Assembly (NCBI GenBank): GCA_017554105.1
Contig: JAFZIY010000023.1
Coordinates: 1 to 64,000, forward strand
From: Prevotella sp.
GTDB lineage: Bacteria; Bacteroidota; Bacteroidia; Bacteroidales; Bacteroidaceae
Direction: 5' to 3'
Length of the DNA stretch: 64,000 nucleotides
The notes below the pieces were generated by a model. That model was not told the DNA's origin and did not search any database. It saw nothing but the letters and a program-made list of their open reading frames with translations. Both the position numbers and the translations under genes were made by a program. This document shows, piece after piece, positions 16,493 to 63,957 of the stretch. The number at the start of each line of letters is the position of its first letter. Position 1 is the stretch's first letter.

Positions 16493-16580
16493 TTGTCAAA
16501 GATGGTCTTTTACCTTGTAAAAAGGCATCTCTAACAACGCTAAAGATGCCCTTTGAGCACGTCAAAGGGCATCTTTTACT
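16493..16580. repeat. 22-bp periodic array 2 (four units)
   Basis: Four units place CTTT-like cores at about 16506, 16528, 16550 and 16572, an exact 22-base period. Units alternate between AAAGATGCCCTTTGA-like and AAAGGGCATCTTT-like forms. The array fills the gap between the convergent fmt and Crp/Fnr genes. Confidence 0.65.
16542..16577. terminator. bidirectional terminator built from two repeat units
   Basis: A perfect 15-bp stem (16542-16556 with 16562-16576, arm AAAGATGCCCTTTGA) with the loop GCACG is followed by T-rich sequence on + and preceded by A residues, so it can end transcripts from both sides. It is made from two neighbouring 22-bp array units in opposite orientation. Confidence 0.75.
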
Positions 16581-16608: not shown

Positions 16609-17205
16609 TCAATCAAGCAACGTACTGGAACGTACACGGCTTAAGGTCTCTGGAGTCATCTGTAAATAGCTTGCTATATACACGAGGGGAGCACGAAGGG
16701 TAACTTGCTGCTGTAGTTTGCACATCTTGCGATAACGGTCTTGAGCAGACTCAAACCTTACAAGGTCAGCATGCACCTGTGAGAGAATCAGACTTTCCTC
16801 GAGTATCTTTCTATACAGAATCTGGATGTTGACATTATGCAGAGCAACCTCTTCAAGCTTGACCTTGGGAAGTGCGTAGATAATGGTAGGCTCAAGAGCC
16901 TCAATCTGAAGTTTCGTAGGCTCTTCCCGGAAAAGACTCTCAATACACATTATGATATTTCCCTCAACGGCCATATGCTCCGTAACTCCTTTGCCGTTCT
17001 TGTAATAGAACTGCCTGACAAGACCTTTCTCTACATAGTAGATACACTTGCATATCTCTCCCTCCTTCAAAATCATCTCGCCCTTGGCAAACCTCATTGG
17101 CACAAGCACACTCTGAAGAATATCAAGTTCCTCATGAGTCATCGTACTATACTTGCGTGCTAGTTCCCTGGCTATGTCTCTTACGGTGTTTGACAAATCT
17201 TTCAT
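16609..17205 (-). CDS. Crp/Fnr family transcriptional regulator
   Basis: A 198-residue regulator. Start 17205 (MKDLSNTVRDIARELARKY) was preferred because the longer frame overlaps the lepA 3' end with unlikely sequence. Residues about 35-135 form a cyclic-nucleotide-binding-like beta roll (MRFAKGEMILKEGEICKCIYYVEKGLVRQFYY). The C-terminal helix-turn-helix is short and ends in YIASYLQMTPETLSRVRSS, the typical Crp/Fnr recognition helix. No Cys cluster for an Fe-S centre and no clear cAMP-binding arginine pattern can be seen, so the effector is unknown. It lies 52 bases downstream of lepA on the same strand. Confidence 0.85.
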   Translation of the reverse strand: MKDLSNTVRDIARELARKYSTMTHEELDILQSVLVPMRFAKGEMILKEGEICKCIYYVEKGLVRQFYYKNGKGVTEHMAVEGNIIMCIESLFREEPTKLQIEALEPTIIYALPKVKLEEVALHNVNIQILYRKILEESLILSQVHADLVRFESAQDRYRKMCKLQQQVTLRAPLVYIASYLQMTPETLSRVRSSTLLD

Positions 17206-17257
17206 CTCGTGTCGTCCTCCCTTTATTAGATTTTTAGTTGTTATTTTGTATGTGTTT

Positions 17258-19039
17258 TTAGTCAAGTTTAAGAACGGCAAGGAATGCCTTCTGAGGCACT
17301 TCCACATTGCCAATCTGCTTCATGCGCTTCTTGCCTTTTTTCTGCTTCTCAAGCAATTTACGCTTTCTGCTGACATCACCTCCATAGCATTTCGCAGTTA
17401 CATCCTTACGGACTTGCTTTACCGTTTCCCTTGCTATTATCTTAGCACCTATGGCTGCCTGGATTGCAATGTCAAACTGCTGTCTTGGAATCAGCTCTTT
17501 AAGTTTCTCACACATGCGTCTTCCAAAACCTACCGCATTATCTTGATGTGTCAATGTTGACAACGCATCAACTGGTTCTCCATTGAGAAGTATGTCGAGT
17601 TTCACAAGCTTCGATGGCCTGAATGAGTCGATGTGATAATCGAACGATGCATATCCCTTGGAAATACTCTTCAACTTGTCATAGAAGTCGATAACTATCT
17701 CACCTAGAGGAAGCATGAAGTGAAGCTCAACACGATTACCACTGACATATTCTTGGTTAATCAGTTCTCCCCTCTTGTCAAGGCAGAGTTTCATTATAGG
17801 ACCGATATAGTTGCTATCGGTGATTATAGATGCTCGTATGTATGGTTCCTCAATATGTTCTATCATCGTAGGATCAGGCAATCCGCTCGGGTTGTGTACT
17901 TCGGACGACTCGCCTTGCTTGGTATATACCATGTACGACACGTTGGGAACCGTAGTTATTACATCCATATTGAACTCCCTATCGAGTCGTTCCTGTATTA
18001 TCTCCATGTGCAGAAGGCCTAAGAAACCACATCTGAATCCAAAGCCAAGTGCAACTGACGACTCAGGGAAGAACGACAATGAAGCGTCATTTAACTGAAG
18101 TTTCTCCAACGATGCACGCAGGTTCTCGTATTCTGTCGGGTCGATGGGATATACACCGGCAAAAACCATTGGCTTCACCTCTTGGAATCCCTCAATTGCC
18201 TTGTCGCAAGGATTTGCTATGTGGGTTATGGTGTCACCGACCTTAACTTCCTTTGCGTCCTTTATTCCGCTTATAATATACCCTACCTCACCCGTTTTCA
18301 GTTCGCGTCGCGATATCATATCCATCTTCAGAACGCCAACCTCATCAGCATCATACTCCATTCCTGTGTTGAAGAACTTAACTTTGTCACCCTTCTTTAT
18401 CGAGCCATTAACAATCTTGAAGTATGCTATGATGCCTCGGAAAGAATTAAACACAGAGTCGAAAATCAACGCCTGAAGAGGAGCATCGGGATCTCCTTCG
18501 GGATGAGGAATACGCTCAACGACGGCACGAAGTATGTCATCTATACCTTCACCGGTTTTTCCACTCGCACGTATTATCTCATTTCTATCGCATCCTATCA
18601 GGTCTACTATTTCGTCTTCAACCTCATCAGGCATTGCGCTAGGCATGTCTATCTTGTTGATTACGGGTATAATCTCAAGATTATGGTCAATAGCCATATA
18701 GAGGTTACTTATAGTCTGGGCCTGAACGCCCTGAGTGGCGTCAACCACAAGCAATGCTCCCTCACATGCAGCTATGCTTCTGCTAACCTCGTATGAGAAG
18801 TCCACATGTCCCGGAGTGTCTATAAGGTTCAGTATATAATTCTGACCATCCAGTTCGTATTCCATCTGAATGGCATGGCTCTTAATAGTGATACCTCTCT
18901 CCTTTTCCAGGTCCATGTCATCAAGCATCTGACCTTCAGTAATCTGAATGGTATTGGTACGTTCCAAAAGCCTGTCGGCAATGGTACTCTTACCATGGTC
19001 AATGTGTGCTATTATGCAGAAATTACGTATATGTTGCAT
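17258..19039 (-). CDS. lepA: elongation factor 4 (LepA)
   Basis: LepA is a ribosome-binding GTPase related to EF-G. The 593-residue protein starts at [19 protein letters not shown]; five extra upstream residues are possible but atypical. GTPase motifs are G1 [10 protein letters not shown]2/G3 ERGITIK and DTPGHVDF, and G4 NKIDMPSA. The EF-G-like domains follow, and the LepA-specific C-terminal domain (residues about 490-593) ends with [34 protein letters not shown] -7 box lies upstream on the minus strand (19070-19063). Confidence 0.97.
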
Positions 19040-26100: not shown

Positions 26101-26170
26101 TCCCCTTAGGAGAAGAGTGTATGTCTTCGTCTTAGCCTCGTAAAAGAATGAATGAGTTTGAAGACCGATG

Positions 26171-26335
26171 GCGTTCCAGTTCCAGTTGTTCCAGTTGAAA
26201 AATGAGGAACAACACACCTTCCAAATATTATATAATTAATTGATATATAAGTATTTATATATACAATGAGGGGTGTTTGTACATCAAAAAAAACTGGAAC
26301 AACTGGAACAACTGGAACAACTGGAACTGGAACGC
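26171..26335. repeat. 27-bp inverted repeat with tandem TTCCAG units (copy A)
   Basis: Positions 26171-26197 and 26309-26335 are perfect reverse complements over 27 bases. The right arm carries two further units toward the core (from 26293). The arms flank about 110 bases, including an AT-rich core with the near-palindrome TATATAAGTATTTATATA. Confidence 0.85.
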
Positions 26336-26374
26336 TTAGGGGTATTTGTTTCATATCTAAAAAGCAGTATATCA

Positions 26375-26539
26375 ATGAAATACAACATTCACAAAAATCC
26401 TGCACTAGTATTCCATATAGACAAAAAGCACATAAAACTGCATATTTCTCCTCTAAAAGCATCAAATAACGTGCGTGATATGCTTGTTTCGATACTTTTA
26501 CCTGTACTTAAAGCATTCAAAAGTGTTTCGGAATTTTAA
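26375..26539 (+). CDS. possible 54-residue small protein inside repeat copy A
   Basis: The frame begins at ATG 26375, just after the tandem arm, and is preceded by AAAAAGCAGTATATCA, which is conserved in copy B. It encodes MKYNIHKNP ... HISPLKASNNVRDMLVSILL ... KSVSEF. Copy B encodes a clearly related peptide but has a one-base insertion that stops it at 31 residues. Differences between the copies include many amino-acid changes, so there is no sign of selection on protein. The frame could be a relic or simply part of a non-coding element. I recognise no family. Confidence 0.3.
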   Translation: MKYNIHKNPALVFHIDKKHIKLHISPLKASNNVRDMLVSILLPVLKAFKSVSEF

Positions 26540-26667
26540 TACTCTAACCCCTTTTTGAAACAACTTTGTGCTAAAATGGACTGTCCCATAGCAGAAAGTG
26601 AGGGTAAGAGGGCACTAAAATCAACTAAAAAAGGCAGAAAACCTATCCTGGTTTTCTACCTATTCAG

Positions 26668-26755
26668 CGGAAGGTGAGGGATTCAAACCCCCGATACCCG
26701 AAAGGGGTATACCGGATTTCGAGTCCAGCGCGATCGATCACTCTGCCAACCTTCC
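26668..26755 (-). tRNA. tRNA-Ser (anticodon CGA)
   Basis: The minus strand reads as a type II tRNA of 88 bases: acceptor stem GGAAGGT paired with ACCTTCC, discriminator G, anticodon stem-loop with loop CTCGAAA (anticodon CGA, decoding UCG), a long variable arm closing on TTTC (ATACCCC/GGGTAT) and the T loop TTTGAAT. CCA is not encoded. A textbook promoter lies 78 bases upstream, followed by a leader with two hairpins. Confidence 0.95.
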
Positions 26756-47304: not shown

Positions 47305-48531
47305 GTGAAACATAGAAAAATCATCCTGAAGGTGTTTCTCCTGGCTGTTATGATGCTGAGTTCAACACTTTCATACAGTCAGGAAAGTGTGTTGAATCCC
47401 GACTCTTTGGAAATCAGCCTGCTCACTTGCTCACCCCATCAGCAAGTGTACAGCCTTTATGGGCATACGGCAATAAGGTTGCGCGACCAGCGTACCGGAC
47501 TCGACGTGGCCGTCAACTATGGAGTGTTCTCTTTCAAGAAGCCTCTTTTCATACCGCGTTTCGTCTTCGGTGTTGCCGAGTACGAGATAGGTATCATTCC
47601 TTTCAAGTATTTCATTTCCGAGTATGCGTACTATGGAAGCAGCATCACCCAGCAGGTACTCAACCTCACTCCCGAGGAGAAGATGATAATCTTCGATGCG
47701 ATAAGGGTGAACAACATGCCCGAGAACAAATACTACAGATACAACTATTTCTATGACAACTGCACCACAAGGGCACGCGACATCCTCGTGAATCACATCA
47801 AGGGAGGCGTGACCTACAAGCCTCGCGACGGCAAGAGTTACCGCGAGATAATACACGAGAAGAACGAAGGTCACCCCTGGGCACGCTTCGGCAACGACCT
47901 GTTGCTCGGAGTTGGGGCAGACATGCCTACGACACAGGAGCAGAGACAGTTCCTTCCTGACAACATGATGATTGACTTCGAGAATGCCATCAGGAACGAC
48001 AATAAGACACCTTTGACAGATACCACGATGGTGATTCTCAACGCAAGGGAGCAGATCATCGAGAAAGAGTTCCCCCTGACGCCAACACAATGCGGATGGG
48101 TGCTGCTCATCGTCACTATCGCCCTTACCATATATGAGATAATAAGGAAAAAGAACCTCAGGTTCTACGATGCATTCTTGATGATTGTAGCATCGGTGAT
48201 GGGTATCGTAATCTTCCTGATGTTGTTCTCCGAGCATCCCACGGTAAGGTTAAACCTTCAGATACTGCTTGTCAATCCCCTGCCCCTGTTCTTTATCAGA
48301 CGACTGCTTAAGAGGCAGAAGAACGGCACCCGCGACTGCCAATATATCCTATGGACTATCCTCATTATTCTCTTCTTTTTAGGAGGGTTTATACAGTCGT
48401 ATGCCGAGGGAATGTATCTTTTGGCATCATCTTTGCTGATAAGAAACATAAAAGGTATCATTTACCATTGCAAAAGATGTCCTTTCGGAAGCAGAAAAGC
48501 ATCCTTTGACAATGCGAAAGATGCCCTTTGA
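47305..48531 (+). CDS. DUF4105 (Lnb N-terminal periplasmic domain) membrane protein
   Basis: A 408-residue protein beginning with GTG at 47305, which is needed for the signal peptide KHRKIILKVFLLAVMMLSSTLSYSQ. Residues about 30-245 are DUF4105/Lnb-like (LEISLLTCSPHQQVYSLYGHTAIRLRD, NYFYDNCTTRARDIL), which resembles a papain-like fold with conserved Cys/His. Four hydrophobic segments follow (about 255-385). A TAATTTTG -7 box ends four bases before the GTG, so the message may be nearly leaderless. The last residues (CKRCPFGSRKASFDNAKDAL) are encoded by a 22-bp repeat array and are probably not part of the ancestral protein. Confidence 0.83.
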   Translation: MKHRKIILKVFLLAVMMLSSTLSYSQESVLNPDSLEISLLTCSPHQQVYSLYGHTAIRLRDQRTGLDVAVNYGVFSFKKPLFIPRFVFGVAEYEIGIIPFKYFISEYAYYGSSITQQVLNLTPEEKMIIFDAIRVNNMPENKYYRYNYFYDNCTTRARDILVNHIKGGVTYKPRDGKSYREIIHEKNEGHPWARFGNDLLLGVGADMPTTQEQRQFLPDNMMIDFENAIRNDNKTPLTDTTMVILNAREQIIEKEFPLTPTQCGWVLLIVTIALTIYEIIRKKNLRFYDAFLMIVASVMGIVIFLMLFSEHPTVRLNLQILLVNPLPLFFIRRLLKRQKNGTRDCQYILWTILIILFFLGGFIQSYAEGMYLLASSLLIRNIKGIIYHCKRCPFGSRKASFDNAKDAL

Positions 48532-48560
48532 CGAGGCGAAAGACGTCCTTTGAGAAATTA
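48447..48560. repeat. 22-bp periodic array 4 (five units), overlapping the 3' end of the DUF4105 gene
   Basis: Cores lie at 48459, 48481, 48503, 48525 and 48547, an exact 22-base period. Typical units read AAAGATGTCCTTTCGG, AAGCATCCTTTGAC and AAAGATGCCCTTTGAC. Because 22 is not a multiple of three, each unit is read in a different frame within the gene's last codons. Confidence 0.7.
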
Positions 48561-48576
48561 ACAAGAAAGAAGCGAT

Positions 48577-54340: not shown

Positions 54341-54443
54341 GTAATCGGCATTTTTAGTCTATCATTTTAAGGGTTTACCACCCAATTTCTGCAATGTGAC
54401 TGGCCATTTTAGCACAATGTTGTTTCAAAATGGGGTTAGAGTA

Positions 54444-54609
54444 TTAAAATTCCGAAACACTTTTGGGTGCTTTAAGTACAGATATAAGTATCGAAACAAG
54501 CATATCACGCTCGTTATTTGATGCTTTTTAGAGGAGAAATATGCTGTTTTTTGTGCTTTTTGCATGTCTTTGTAACGAGTGCATAACATTGGTGATTTAT
54601 GTATTTCAT
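54444..54609 (-). pseudogene. frameshifted homologue of the 54-residue frame in copy A
   Basis: The minus-strand frame starts at ATG 54609 (MKYINHQ ...) and stops at 54514 after 31 residues, because of an extra A in the run CTAAAAAGC. Removing it restores SNNERDMLVSIL ... KSVSEF to 54444, matching the end of the copy A frame. The differences look neutral, so this may be a decayed gene or a non-coding stretch. Confidence 0.3.
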
Positions 54610-54647
54610 TGATATACTGCTTTTTAGATGAAAAATAAATACATTAA

Positions 54648-54796
54648 GCGTCACAGTTACAGTTGTTACAGTTGTTTTTTGATATGCCACCACCCCTCAT
54701 TATACATATAAATACTTATATATCAATTAATTATATAATCTTTAGAAGGGGGTTGCGTTACGTGTTTTTTAACTGTAACAACTGTAACTGTAACGC
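54648..54796. repeat. 27-bp inverted repeat with tandem TTACAG units (copy B)
   Basis: The left arm is 54648-54674 (GCGTCACAG, then TTACAG units) and the right arm 54770-54796 (CTGTAAC units ending ACGC). 25 of 27 positions are complementary. The arms enclose about 95 bases with the AT-rich core. Confidence 0.8.
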
Positions 54797-55059
54797 CATA
54801 GTGTCTCAACACACATTCATTCCTCTACGAGGCCTACCAGTAGCATGTAGAGATGATAGGAATAAGTTCTGGAGAGGTCAGGAAGCACAAGTGAGGAGGA
54901 CAGAAATACCGAGTGAGGAGTTAACTTGTCAACTAAAAATATTTAATTATTTCCCGAATTCAAAAAAACTTCGTACCTTTACGACCGCAAAACGCGGAGT
55001 GCCGTTTTTTGCATATGAATAGTAATAATGACAAAGTTAATAAAACGAAAAAAACTGCA

Positions 55060-61929: not shown

Positions 61930-63198
61930 TTATCCGAAGTTGTCGAACATTATCGACTCTGGGTCAACGCCGAGAGAGTCGAGCATTCCCTGAACGGCCT
62001 TCGACATAGGACCAGGACCGCACATGTAGTACTCGATGTCCTCAGGTGCCTCATGGTCTTTCAGGTAAGTCTCATACATCACCTGATGAACGAAGCCAGC
62101 GGTGTACTTGACTCCTGCCTTGTCTGCCTCTGGGTCAGGACGGTCAAGAGCCAGATGGAAGTGGAAGTTAGGGAACTGCTTCTCCAACTCAAGGAAGTCC
62201 TCAACGAAGAATGCCTCGACGAGAGCACGTGCGCCATAGAAGAAATGCATCTCACGGTCGCGTGTGTTGAGAGTCTTCGTCATGTGCATAATCTGTGCAC
62301 GGAGAGGAGCCATTCCGGCACCACCACCGACCCATATCATCTCTTTCTTCGAGTCGAAGATGGGATGGAAGTCACCGTAAGGACCGCTCATGATTACCTT
62401 GTCGCCCGGTTTGCGCGAGAAGATGTAACTTGACGCGATTCCCGTAGGTACATCCTGGAAGCCCACCTCAGGTTTTGGCTTGAAAGGTGTGGTTGCGATA
62501 CGCACGGTAAGTGTGATGCGGTCACCCTCGGCAGGATAGTTAGCCATAGAGTATGCACGGATGGTGTCCTCTGGATTATGGGCCTTGAGAGAGAAGATGT
62601 TGAACCTCTCCCATGAAGGAAGATAATCGGGACCGATGTCTTCCTTGTCGAAGTCCTTGTCATAATCGATGCAATCGTATGCAGGAATCTTTATCTGTGC
62701 ATAAGAGCCAGGTATGAAGTCCATGTGCTCGCCTGGAGGCAATGCCACGATAAACTCCTTGATGAAGCTTGATACGTTCTTGTTGGAGATAACGGTACAC
62801 TCCCACTCCTTAACGCCGAGAACACTCTCGGGAACCTTTATCTTAAGGTCGCCCTTCACCTTGCATTGACAACCGAGACGCCAATGGTCCTTTATCTGCT
62901 TACGTGTGAAGTGAGGCTTCTCGGAATCGAGAATCTCGCCACCACCCTCAAGCACCTGTACCTTACACTGACCACATGATGCCTTACCACCGCAGGCAGA
63001 AGGCAGGAAAATGCCGTTCTCGTTGAGTGTTGCCATCAGGTTGTTGCCCTGGGCTACAGAGATGGTACGGTCACCGTTAATCTCAATGTTCACATCGCCC
63101 GAAGGAGAAAGATACTTCTTCGCAACGAGTAGGATAATCACAAGAAGAATGATTACCAGGAGAAATACTCCTATACTGTATGAAATGAATTGTATCAT
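61930..63198 (-). CDS. nqrF: Na+-translocating NADH:quinone reductase subunit F
   Basis: NqrF is the NADH-oxidising subunit of the sodium pump. The 422-residue protein has an N-terminal membrane helix (about 5-27), a 2Fe-2S ferredoxin domain with CGGKASCGQCKVQV (Cys70, Cys76, Cys79) and a fourth Cys in LGCQCKVK, an FAD domain with RAYSMANYPAEGD, and an NADH-binding domain with GGGAGMAPLRAQI and YYMCGPGPM. The end SIMFDNFG is family-typical. The ATG is preceded by a long inverted repeat that starts only five bases upstream, which may limit its translation. Confidence 0.97.
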   Translation of the reverse strand: MIQFISYSIGVFLLVIILLVIILLVAKKYLSPSGDVNIEINGDRTISVAQGNNLMATLNENGIFLPSACGGKASCGQCKVQVLEGGGEILDSEKPHFTRKQIKDHWRLGCQCKVKGDLKIKVPESVLGVKEWECTVISNKNVSSFIKEFIVALPPGEHMDFIPGSYAQIKIPAYDCIDYDKDFDKEDIGPDYLPSWERFNIFSLKAHNPEDTIRAYSMANYPAEGDRITLTVRIATTPFKPKPEVGFQDVPTGIASSYIFSRKPGDKVIMSGPYGDFHPIFDSKKEMIWVGGGAGMAPLRAQIMHMTKTLNTRDREMHFFYGARALVEAFFVEDFLELEKQFPNFHFHLALDRPDPEADKAGVKYTAGFVHQVMYETYLKDHEAPEDIEYYMCGPGPMSKAVQGMLDSLGVDPESIMFDNFG

Positions 63199-63203
63199 AT
63201 TCG

Positions 63204-63331
63204 AGCCCCCAAAGTTAGGGGGTTGGGGGTCTGAACAAGCGTTTACCAGACCATTTATTATGATTAATTATTATCCGGAGGAAGGGAGCACTGCGCCTGT
63301 TCAGACCCCCACCCCCCTGACTCAGGGGGCT
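63204..63331. mobile_element. 128-bp MITE-like element with 38-bp terminal inverted repeats
   Basis: Arms 63204-63241 and 63294-63331 are reverse complements over 38 bases with about five mismatches and flank 52 bases. Each arm also folds on itself (CCCCCAAAGTTAGGGGG and CCCCCTGACTCAGGGGG). It fills the nqrE-nqrF gap and abuts the nqrE stop codon. No transposase is encoded. In the mRNA it would form a very stable hairpin ending five bases before the nqrF ATG. Confidence 0.65.
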
Positions 63332-63957
63332 TATATATTAAGTCCAGAGAAACACATCATCGCCATAGCCATGAGGCCGACGGTAATAAACACTATGCCG
63401 AGACCCTGAAGGGGCTTGGGGATATCCGAGTACTGCATCTTCTCACGGATGGCTCCCATAGCCACGATAGCGAGGGTCCAACCGAGACCGGAACCGAAGC
63501 CATAAACCATAGCGTCCCAAATAGAGGTAATGGCCTGCGAGTTAGAGGGCTCCATGAGGATGCGCTGTTGCATGAAGAGCGAGGCACCCATGATGGCACA
63601 GTTAACGGCAATCAGAGGCAGGAAGATACCCAGAGCCGCATAGAGCGAGGGAGAGTATTTCTCTACCGTCATCTCAACCAACTGTACCATACCGGCAATC
63701 ACAGCGATAAAGAGGATGAACGACAGGTAACTGAGGTCGACACCATCAGCGAGGCAATCGGGACCCAGCACCTTGGTCTGCAACAGATAGTTGACGGGCA
63801 CGGTAACCGTGAGCACAAAGGTCACAGCCATACCGAGACCCAACGAGGTCTTCACCGTCTTCGACACGGCAAGGTAGGAACACATGCCGAGGAAGAAGGC
63901 GAAAATCATATTGTCCACAAAGATGGACCTGAATAGTAATGATATTACGTGTTCCAT
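63331..63957 (-). CDS. nqrE: Na+-translocating NADH:quinone reductase subunit E
   Basis: NqrE is one of two pseudo-symmetric membrane subunits (with NqrD) of the sodium pump. The 208-residue protein has six hydrophobic segments with the family pattern [18 protein letters not shown] at the N-terminus and [17 protein letters not shown] in the middle, where a conserved Cys lies in each half. Its start lies three bases after the nqrD stop, so the nqr genes form one minus-strand operon running into the window from beyond 64000. Confidence 0.97.

Follow-up and report, generated by a model that had tools for sequence, protein, structure and literature searches.

A dispersed element of Prevotella with matched short-repeat arms as a probable iteron-type origin with a cognate MCM-like initiator

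We describe a dispersed element in DNA of Prevotella sp. (assembly GCA_017554105.1, contig JAFZIY010000023.1, positions 1–64,000, the whole 64,000-nt stretch being called the window below). As judged from sequence comparison, the element is probably an iteron-type replication origin with a cognate MCM-like initiator, comparable to the replicons of SaPI and SCCmec. In the mechanism we propose, a region rich in A and T, where unwinding would begin, would lie between two arms of short repeats. Where a copy is intact, the gene immediately downstream would supply an MCM-like AAA+ initiator that binds the repeats via the recognition helix of a C-terminal HTH domain; the bound protein would melt the AT core, or help to melt it, and the neighbouring DnaG-type primase would prime synthesis. 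Iterons and recognition helix would change together, leaving one repeat word per copy.

Results

Two copies of one element in the window

Copy A occupies positions 26135–26600 of the forward strand and copy B positions 54383–54840 of the reverse strand. They are opposite orientations of one element, 81% identical over a 466-base query, and share a layout of two arms of short tandem units with an AT-rich core between them, followed by a tail of about 225 nt. The original prediction that flanks and core are nearly the same in both is accurate in part: identity is 92% over 146 nt of the far tail, 79% over the 117 nt adjacent to the arm and 89% over 75 nt of the core.

By the A/B alignment, copy A begins with GCCTCGTA, and similar sequence ends the upstream gene in intact copies; positions 26135–26150 (+), at the left edge of the A/B similarity, are a remnant of the last codons of a small GLVE-type upstream gene. 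There follow a left iteron arm of three (G)TTCCAG units (26171–26197, +), the AT-rich core, on its sequence a presumed unwinding element (26223–26267, +), a right iteron arm of five CTGGAA units (26292–26335, +), and a decayed 5′ fragment of an MCM-like gene (26375–26600, +), in which an in-frame stop was located by eye about 55 codons in. Copy B, all on the reverse strand, comprises a decayed 5′ fragment of the MCM-like gene (54383–54608), a tail-side iteron arm with two TTACAG units and one TCACAG (54648–54674), the AT-rich core (54700–54745), the other iteron arm with three TTACAG units (54770–54796), and, by the A/B alignment, a remnant of the end of the GLVE-type gene (54817–54840). A leader close to ATCTAAAAAGCAG..ATCAATG precedes many MCM-like start codons, for example at window positions 26350–26377 (by eye).

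The arms are complementary within each copy, as had been claimed, with 27/27 positions pairing between 26171–26197 and 26309–26335 in A, and 96% complementarity between the 26-nt segments 54648–54673 and 54771–54796 in B. It had also been claimed that every unit is swapped between the copies. All eight units of A do read TTCCAG (three in the left arm, five in the right); for B the wording was slightly too strong, as five of its six units read TTACAG and one TCACAG. When the left arms are aligned, the sole three differences between A and B fall on the same base of each of three units. The two extra units in the right arm of A are placed on its inner side, which suggests that the arrays grow.

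With regard to a MITE or other transposable element, for which terminal inverted repeats and target-site duplications would be expected, the arms are internal, and the tails of decayed copies end, by eye, at differing places; relatives were too distant for an empty-site comparison of element insertion. Some 70 nt separate the tail of copy A from the end of a tRNA-Ser(cga) gene at window positions 26667–26755 (−). A tRNA as insertion site was rejected on seven 20-kb stretches around the other own-genome copies outside contig C21, six of which have no tRNA; in the seventh a tRNA lies about 10 kb off. Elsewhere in the window we observed a second dispersed repeat with AAAGATGCCCTTTGA-like units (16520–16567 and 48495–48564) and, at 63197–63338, a 45-nt inverted repeat that is 82% complementary, with C and G runs and a 52-nt gap.

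Intact copies lie upstream of an MCM-like gene with a primase neighbour

The genome holds nine copies of the family. When it was searched with A, seven further sites matched in part, and each is another copy, with the words CTTACA, GTTACA, GTTTCA or GTCTCA. In two of these, C5 and C16, the element sits between an intact gene for a protein of about 142 aa and an intact gene for a 435-aa protein, after which comes a gene with a CHC2 zinc finger. The element lies mostly inside the gap of about 200–230 nt that follows the upstream stop codon, directly upstream of the 435-aa gene. By computation the ATPase part of the 435-aa product has a predicted MCM-like AAA+ fold, and Cch (5dgk) was a weak Foldseek match. 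Neither the 142-aa nor the 435-aa protein has a convincing match in Pfam, NCBIfam or PHROG, and in the window tRNA alone matches Rfam at gathering score, all in line with the earlier statement that no named family behaves in this way.

A search with the C16 protein gave matches in 74 of 150 genomes of the genus, distant long homologues included. A scan of GTDB contigs gave 221 relatives, 80 of which were kept, with titles that name Prevotella and other Bacteroidota, two being titled only 'Bacteroidetes bacterium'. A phage or plasmid identity was rejected, as tblastn with the C5 protein found no match among 50,697 records of phages and 72,556 of plasmids.

Residues K80, E162 and R233, which we take, by eye, to be those of Walker A, Walker B and the arginine finger, are invariant in 89/89 proteins. 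A Walker A lysine is usually followed by S or T, and Walker B usually has D before E; here residue 81 is G and residue 161 is P, each in 80/89 proteins, so the predicted ATPase may be atypical or inactive. On account of these motifs we slightly lowered our confidence in an origin, and slightly raised that in an operator, the main rival. The element would then be bound by the C-terminal HTH and control the protein's own promoter in the upstream gap, without being, at least mainly, an origin. Its place directly upstream of the MCM-like gene, mostly within that gap, is what an operator would show; the departures from the usual ATPase motifs suit a protein that solely binds DNA; and the correlation of word and helix described below fits equally well. 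Geminivirus Rep, which binds its own iterons, also represses its own promoter, according to an excerpt of PMC10548238. An origin nevertheless accounts better for the symmetry of the two arms about an AT-rich core and for an MCM-like fold whose gene neighbours that of a primase, and in A and B, which are gene-less, nothing intact is left for an operator to control. We therefore consider an operator unlikely as the main function, though the two functions could coexist.

Among the neighbours, the primase partner expected of an origin was recognised by sequence, with a CHC2 zinc finger and a weak Toprim_2 match in the member scanned, and its cluster is present in 58/63 loci. Altogether 17 protein clusters recur in at least four of the 63 loci, many of which have short flanks. 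Two candidate identities found no support: an ssDNA-binding fold for the GLVE-type upstream protein (pTM 0.44, no PDB match at E ≤0.001) and DUF3987 (PF13148) for the downstream gene, which had no match in the own genome. DNA cytosine methylase genes were observed near two intact modules, at 17145–18317 of locus L024 (by eye) and at 2363–3703 of L123 (Pfam match), and the modules may sit in islands with restriction genes.

Invertible promoters are common in Bacteroidales, and inverted repeats around some 100 nt beside a gene could recall such a promoter or a recombinase site. The core, however, keeps one orientation relative to the MCM-like gene in the copies read by eye (uncounted), the repeats are multi-unit, and no recombinase was recognised among the recurrent neighbours, ten cluster proteins having been scanned with Pfam, several without a usable match. 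An invertible site is thus hardly credible.

Each copy carries one word in both arms

The units of a copy follow a format of four variable bases, N1–N4, then CA, and nearly all units in both arms of a copy have the same word. For a count, we examined the 119 copies for which 300 nt or more upstream were available, taking the most repeated NNNCA word of each arm separately; nine entries had been dropped as duplicates, including both entries of one genome (G014, L100), and some near relatives were kept. A word occurring at least twice was found in both arms of 116/119 copies, with L099, L114 and L156 lacking one in one or both arms. Left and right words were identical in 114 of these 116; when the pairing was shuffled 2000 times, agreement averaged 26.8 copies and never exceeded 40. 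The units change as a set beyond chance, as had been predicted, and arms that differ within a copy, named in advance as evidence against this, are rare (2/116, G094 and L145).

Word variety amounts to 12 five-base words, or 23 six-base words when the majority N1 base is added (116 copies; N1 is mixed in some). The count of 12 comes from a separate finder that picks a word present in both arms, so that agreement between arms is built into it; the 114/116 count reads each arm alone.

Selection on pairing had been proposed as a driver of these changes, in which case the arms would form a hairpin RNA or DNA cruciform and the unit changes would be compensatory. Such a structure would explain the long complementary arms, perfect over 27 nt in A, and the 38/94 copies in which unit spacing, counted from the outside inward, is the same in both arms. 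Spacing differs between the arms in the other 56/94, however, and in-register complementarity reaches at least 20/22 in 48/116 copies, which indicates that the word is kept rather than in-register pairing. Pairing also predicts no link to a protein helix, and Rfam gave no family for the element at gathering score. The data disfavour pairing as the driver, and we regard a selected hairpin or cruciform as highly improbable.

The most AT-rich 44-mer of the core stretch has a median A+T of 0.89 and the locus 0.50 (n = 120), a comparison of a maximum with a mean. The arrangement of short repeats flanking an AT-rich region beside a putative initiator gene is that of an iteron replicon.

The word follows a presumed recognition helix

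Word and protein were compared in 89 non-redundant proteins of at least 400 aa whose arms each contain at least two units of one word. Eight duplicate and four near-identical entries were dropped, and copies with an unclear word (such as L099, L114, L145 and L156) are absent from this set. The partial correlation of word difference with sequence difference, given the rest of the protein, was 0.36 for residues 381–420 (n = 89), and −0.16 to 0.09 for windows ending at or before residue 360. Residues 372 onwards gave 0.26 when residues 1–355 were held constant, and residues 1–355 gave 0.17 given the C-terminus, so the ATPase part is not free of word signal.

The columns most informative on the whole word were 408, 411, 404 and 410. 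For single bases, 407 was the best of all columns for N1 and 408 for N4; for N3 column 404 was best, and 411 tied with an ATPase-part column, 62. Residues 404, 407, 408 and 411 share one helix face. N1 is G in 49/52 proteins with R407, C in 11/12 with Y407 and A in 11/13 with S or A at this position, and N407 goes with A in six cases and G in three. Likewise, N4 is C in 39/40 proteins with K408, A in 13/13 with Q408 and T in 24/27 with V408. One IMG/VR contig (L196, predicted viral) carries the module after genes that match SNF2-helicase and S24-peptidase; its helix QLYKW and its CTTCCA-type arms agree with this code.

On a tree built from residues 1–355, 19 of the 27 branches on which N1 changes also change residue 407, and 17 of the 22 on which N4 changes also change residue 408. 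Control columns of similar variability (86 for N1, 91 for N4) scored at most 0.44 for N1 and 0.36 for N4, their medians being 0.19 and 0.18. Hypergeometric values, which would assume independent branches, were set aside. For the neighbouring proteins, again given residues 1–355, the partial correlation with the word was 0.06 for the primase (best 30-column window 0.18, n = 81) and 0.03 for the upstream protein (best window 0.05, n = 84), compared with 0.54 and 0.51 for the helix on the same two sets. The word thus tracks the presumed recognition helix, with a far weaker link to the primase and the upstream gene. Of the explanations first offered for the change of units as a set, it is a cognate protein for each variant that these data support.

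Neutral concerted evolution, in which slippage and palindrome conversion homogenise units that have no function, would account for the two extra inner units of A, and for A and B differing at one base per unit though both carry dead gene stubs. It does not predict a word that follows residues 407 and 408 on the tree, and we think it very unlikely as a full explanation, though such homogenisation may still be the mutational route. Gene conversion, also among the first explanations, fares similarly: it, or repeat slippage, may replace units as a set, but alone it leaves the match between word and protein unexplained. Unequal exchange within arms and conversion between arms are the obvious candidate routes of whole-set change.

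Predicting words from the helix

A one-residue rule (407 for N1, 408 for N4) was fixed beforehand and then tried on 25 further copies, which are the 55 full-length proteins in new loci minus 26 already known, three that the finder scored as armless and one without upstream DNA. The rule gave N1 correctly in 15 copies, N4 in 19 and both in 12; the nearest neighbour by ATPase domain gave 20, 18 and 15 for the same copies, and guessing the commonest base gave 13, 4 and 3. As a general predictor the rule failed, with no gain over the relatedness baseline (12 vs 15 of 25). It was right in 10/10 test copies with K or Q at 408, and V408 is present in 12 of the 13 misses. Residue 405 seems to matter as well, since proteins with both V408 and L405 have A at N4 in 5/5 cases, a post hoc count in which three of the five are close relatives. 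Exceptions to the code are L117 and L147, in which V408 goes with A, and L237, in which it goes with C.

Using the nearest neighbour over eight helix columns, 15.2 words were right for the 25 test copies, a tie with the 14 from the ATPase part. In a leave-one-out comparison over 114 copies the helix gave 88.1 correct words vs 62 for the ATPase part. For 52 copies the nearest ATPase-domain neighbour has a differing word, and here the helix recovered 28.9 words. Two hundred random sets of eight ATPase columns recovered a mean of 5.2 and a maximum of 10.9 on these 52, a control that is handicapped because the copies were picked for misprediction by the ATPase domain. When nine-residue windows were taken along the whole protein for the same copies, the window starting at 403 gave 28.9, that at 397, which overlaps it, 17.4 and that at 373 11.2; a fairer yardstick for 28.9 is what other C-terminal windows recover (11.2 and 9.3).

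Gene-less copies and distant homologues

A tree built on the 300 nt that follow the MCM-like gene's start groups the tail of A with that of B (support 0.998), inside a group that also contains the tails of C15a, C15b, C4 and C15c (support 0.956). All six are decayed and, by eye, have common changes. This lineage therefore seems to have amplified a gene-less form, whose members nevertheless bear four different words. Co-resident copies were not seen to avoid shared words (7/58 same-word pairs, 7.4 expected), so that a need to keep such copies apart is not supported as the reason for word diversity.

Two protein searches of the own assembly each counted four matches; the one with the C16 protein lists two intact 435-aa genes (C5, C16), one fragment (C22) and the long homologue of C12. 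The C5 helix, QLYQW, fits its own CTTACA arms, and the C16 helix, QLRVW, its own GTTTCA arms. Neither for A (GTTCCA) nor for B (GTTACA) do the helices of C5, C16 and C12 include one that fits both bases; that of C12, with S407 and Q408, would fit B at N4 and not at N1. Judged by the assembly, A and B are thus present-day orphans. On the origin reading, which we consider probable, each would retain an origin whose arms are intact, together with what is left of the initiator gene, a broken 5′ stub.

The long homologues are about 30% identical, and Pfam confirmed one as a fused BT4734-like primase. In a code-independent scan of 21 of their loci, CA-type arms around an AT core were found in five, L197, L201, L203, L206 and L207; in the stretch read at the other 16/21 no such arms were present, and weaker hits at L211, L212 and L214 were taken as chance. 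In gene orientation, the arm-core-arm elements occupy positions 739–910 in L206, 3880–4054 in L207, 1143–1318 in L201, 2121–2288 in L203 and 2843–3007 in L197, which is 1.5–4.5 kb upstream of the gene, which leaves some doubt about assigning them to the long homologues. At N1, all four of these loci that have a table entry agree with residue 407. At N4, L201 agrees with residue 408, as does L206 on one precedent only, and L207 does not; the residue at 408 in L203 and L197 has no precedent in the table.

Discussion

The kind of system proposed here, an iteron origin with an initiator helicase, is already known. The SaPI replicon of staphylococcal phage satellites is alike in having an initiator helicase with C-terminal origin recognition and repeats beside its own gene, features that are predicted here. 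Ubeda and colleagues reportedly found two iteron sets around an AT-rich stretch in the SaPIbov1 origin. Unlike in SaPI, the gene follows the presumed origin, its product lacks a convincing Pfam match, the primase is CHC2/DnaG-like, no integrase was recognised, the hosts are Bacteroidota, and five-base words number 12, or 23 once the majority base at N1 is counted. An excerpt of PMC7581432 describes SaPI Rep and SCCmec Cch2 as helicases whose C-terminal domain recognises a short-repeat origin beside the gene; it also places the MCM-like helicase Cch or Cch2 in one operon with the primase CCPol-MP, and reports that the Cch-type C-terminal domain binds a putative origin, with AAGTG iterons needed for activity. 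The pairing of an MCM-like helicase gene with a primase gene recurs in our modules, whereas the primase type and the gene order differ and no ccr recombinase was recognised.

Within Bacteroidales, BT4734-like (AEP) primase-helicases offer a further comparison: the own-genome C12 homologue, a match in the search with the C16 protein, carries BT4734-like_N, and five of the 21 long-homologue loci have similar arms with an AT core; in C12, unlike in the modules described here, the primase domain is fused. A residue-to-iteron code is said to have been proposed by Arguello-Astorga and Ruiz-Medrano for the iteron-related domain of geminivirus Rep, which differs in being a rolling-circle HUH initiator of plant viruses with another fold. 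According to an excerpt of PMC10548238, begomovirus iterons vary from species to species and are bound by Rep, and satellites carry helper-like iterons. Vibrio cholerae PLE, a phage satellite with RepA, has iteron origins in which an iteron change escapes the phage nuclease Odn, as reported in an excerpt of PMC8263062 that gives the iterons as about 30 bp and, in that portion, mentions no MCM-like helicase. By analogy, escape from an origin-directed attack is a possible driver of word diversity here.

In the open-licence literature we found no description of the element family, nor of the protein family, its host range, the word variety or the readable link between helix and word. A more far-reaching reading, which we put forward tentatively and consider doubtful, is that of a Bacteroidales initiator-origin family with an evolvable, largely readable code (residues 404, 405, 407, 408 and 411 for N1–N4), in which gene-less origins would be satellites that switch helper by changing their iterons as a set.

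The family offers a natural experiment in which a predicted DNA-binding protein and its sites change together. At the level of sequence it comprises twelve five-base words (23 when the base before them is included), 89 partner proteins and about twenty switches along the tree for each base position, which makes the evolution of initiator specificity directly testable. The findings point to an unannotated class of replication module in Prevotella and its relatives, and if orphan origins such as A and B were used in trans, bacteria would have their own counterpart of the satellites with helper iterons.
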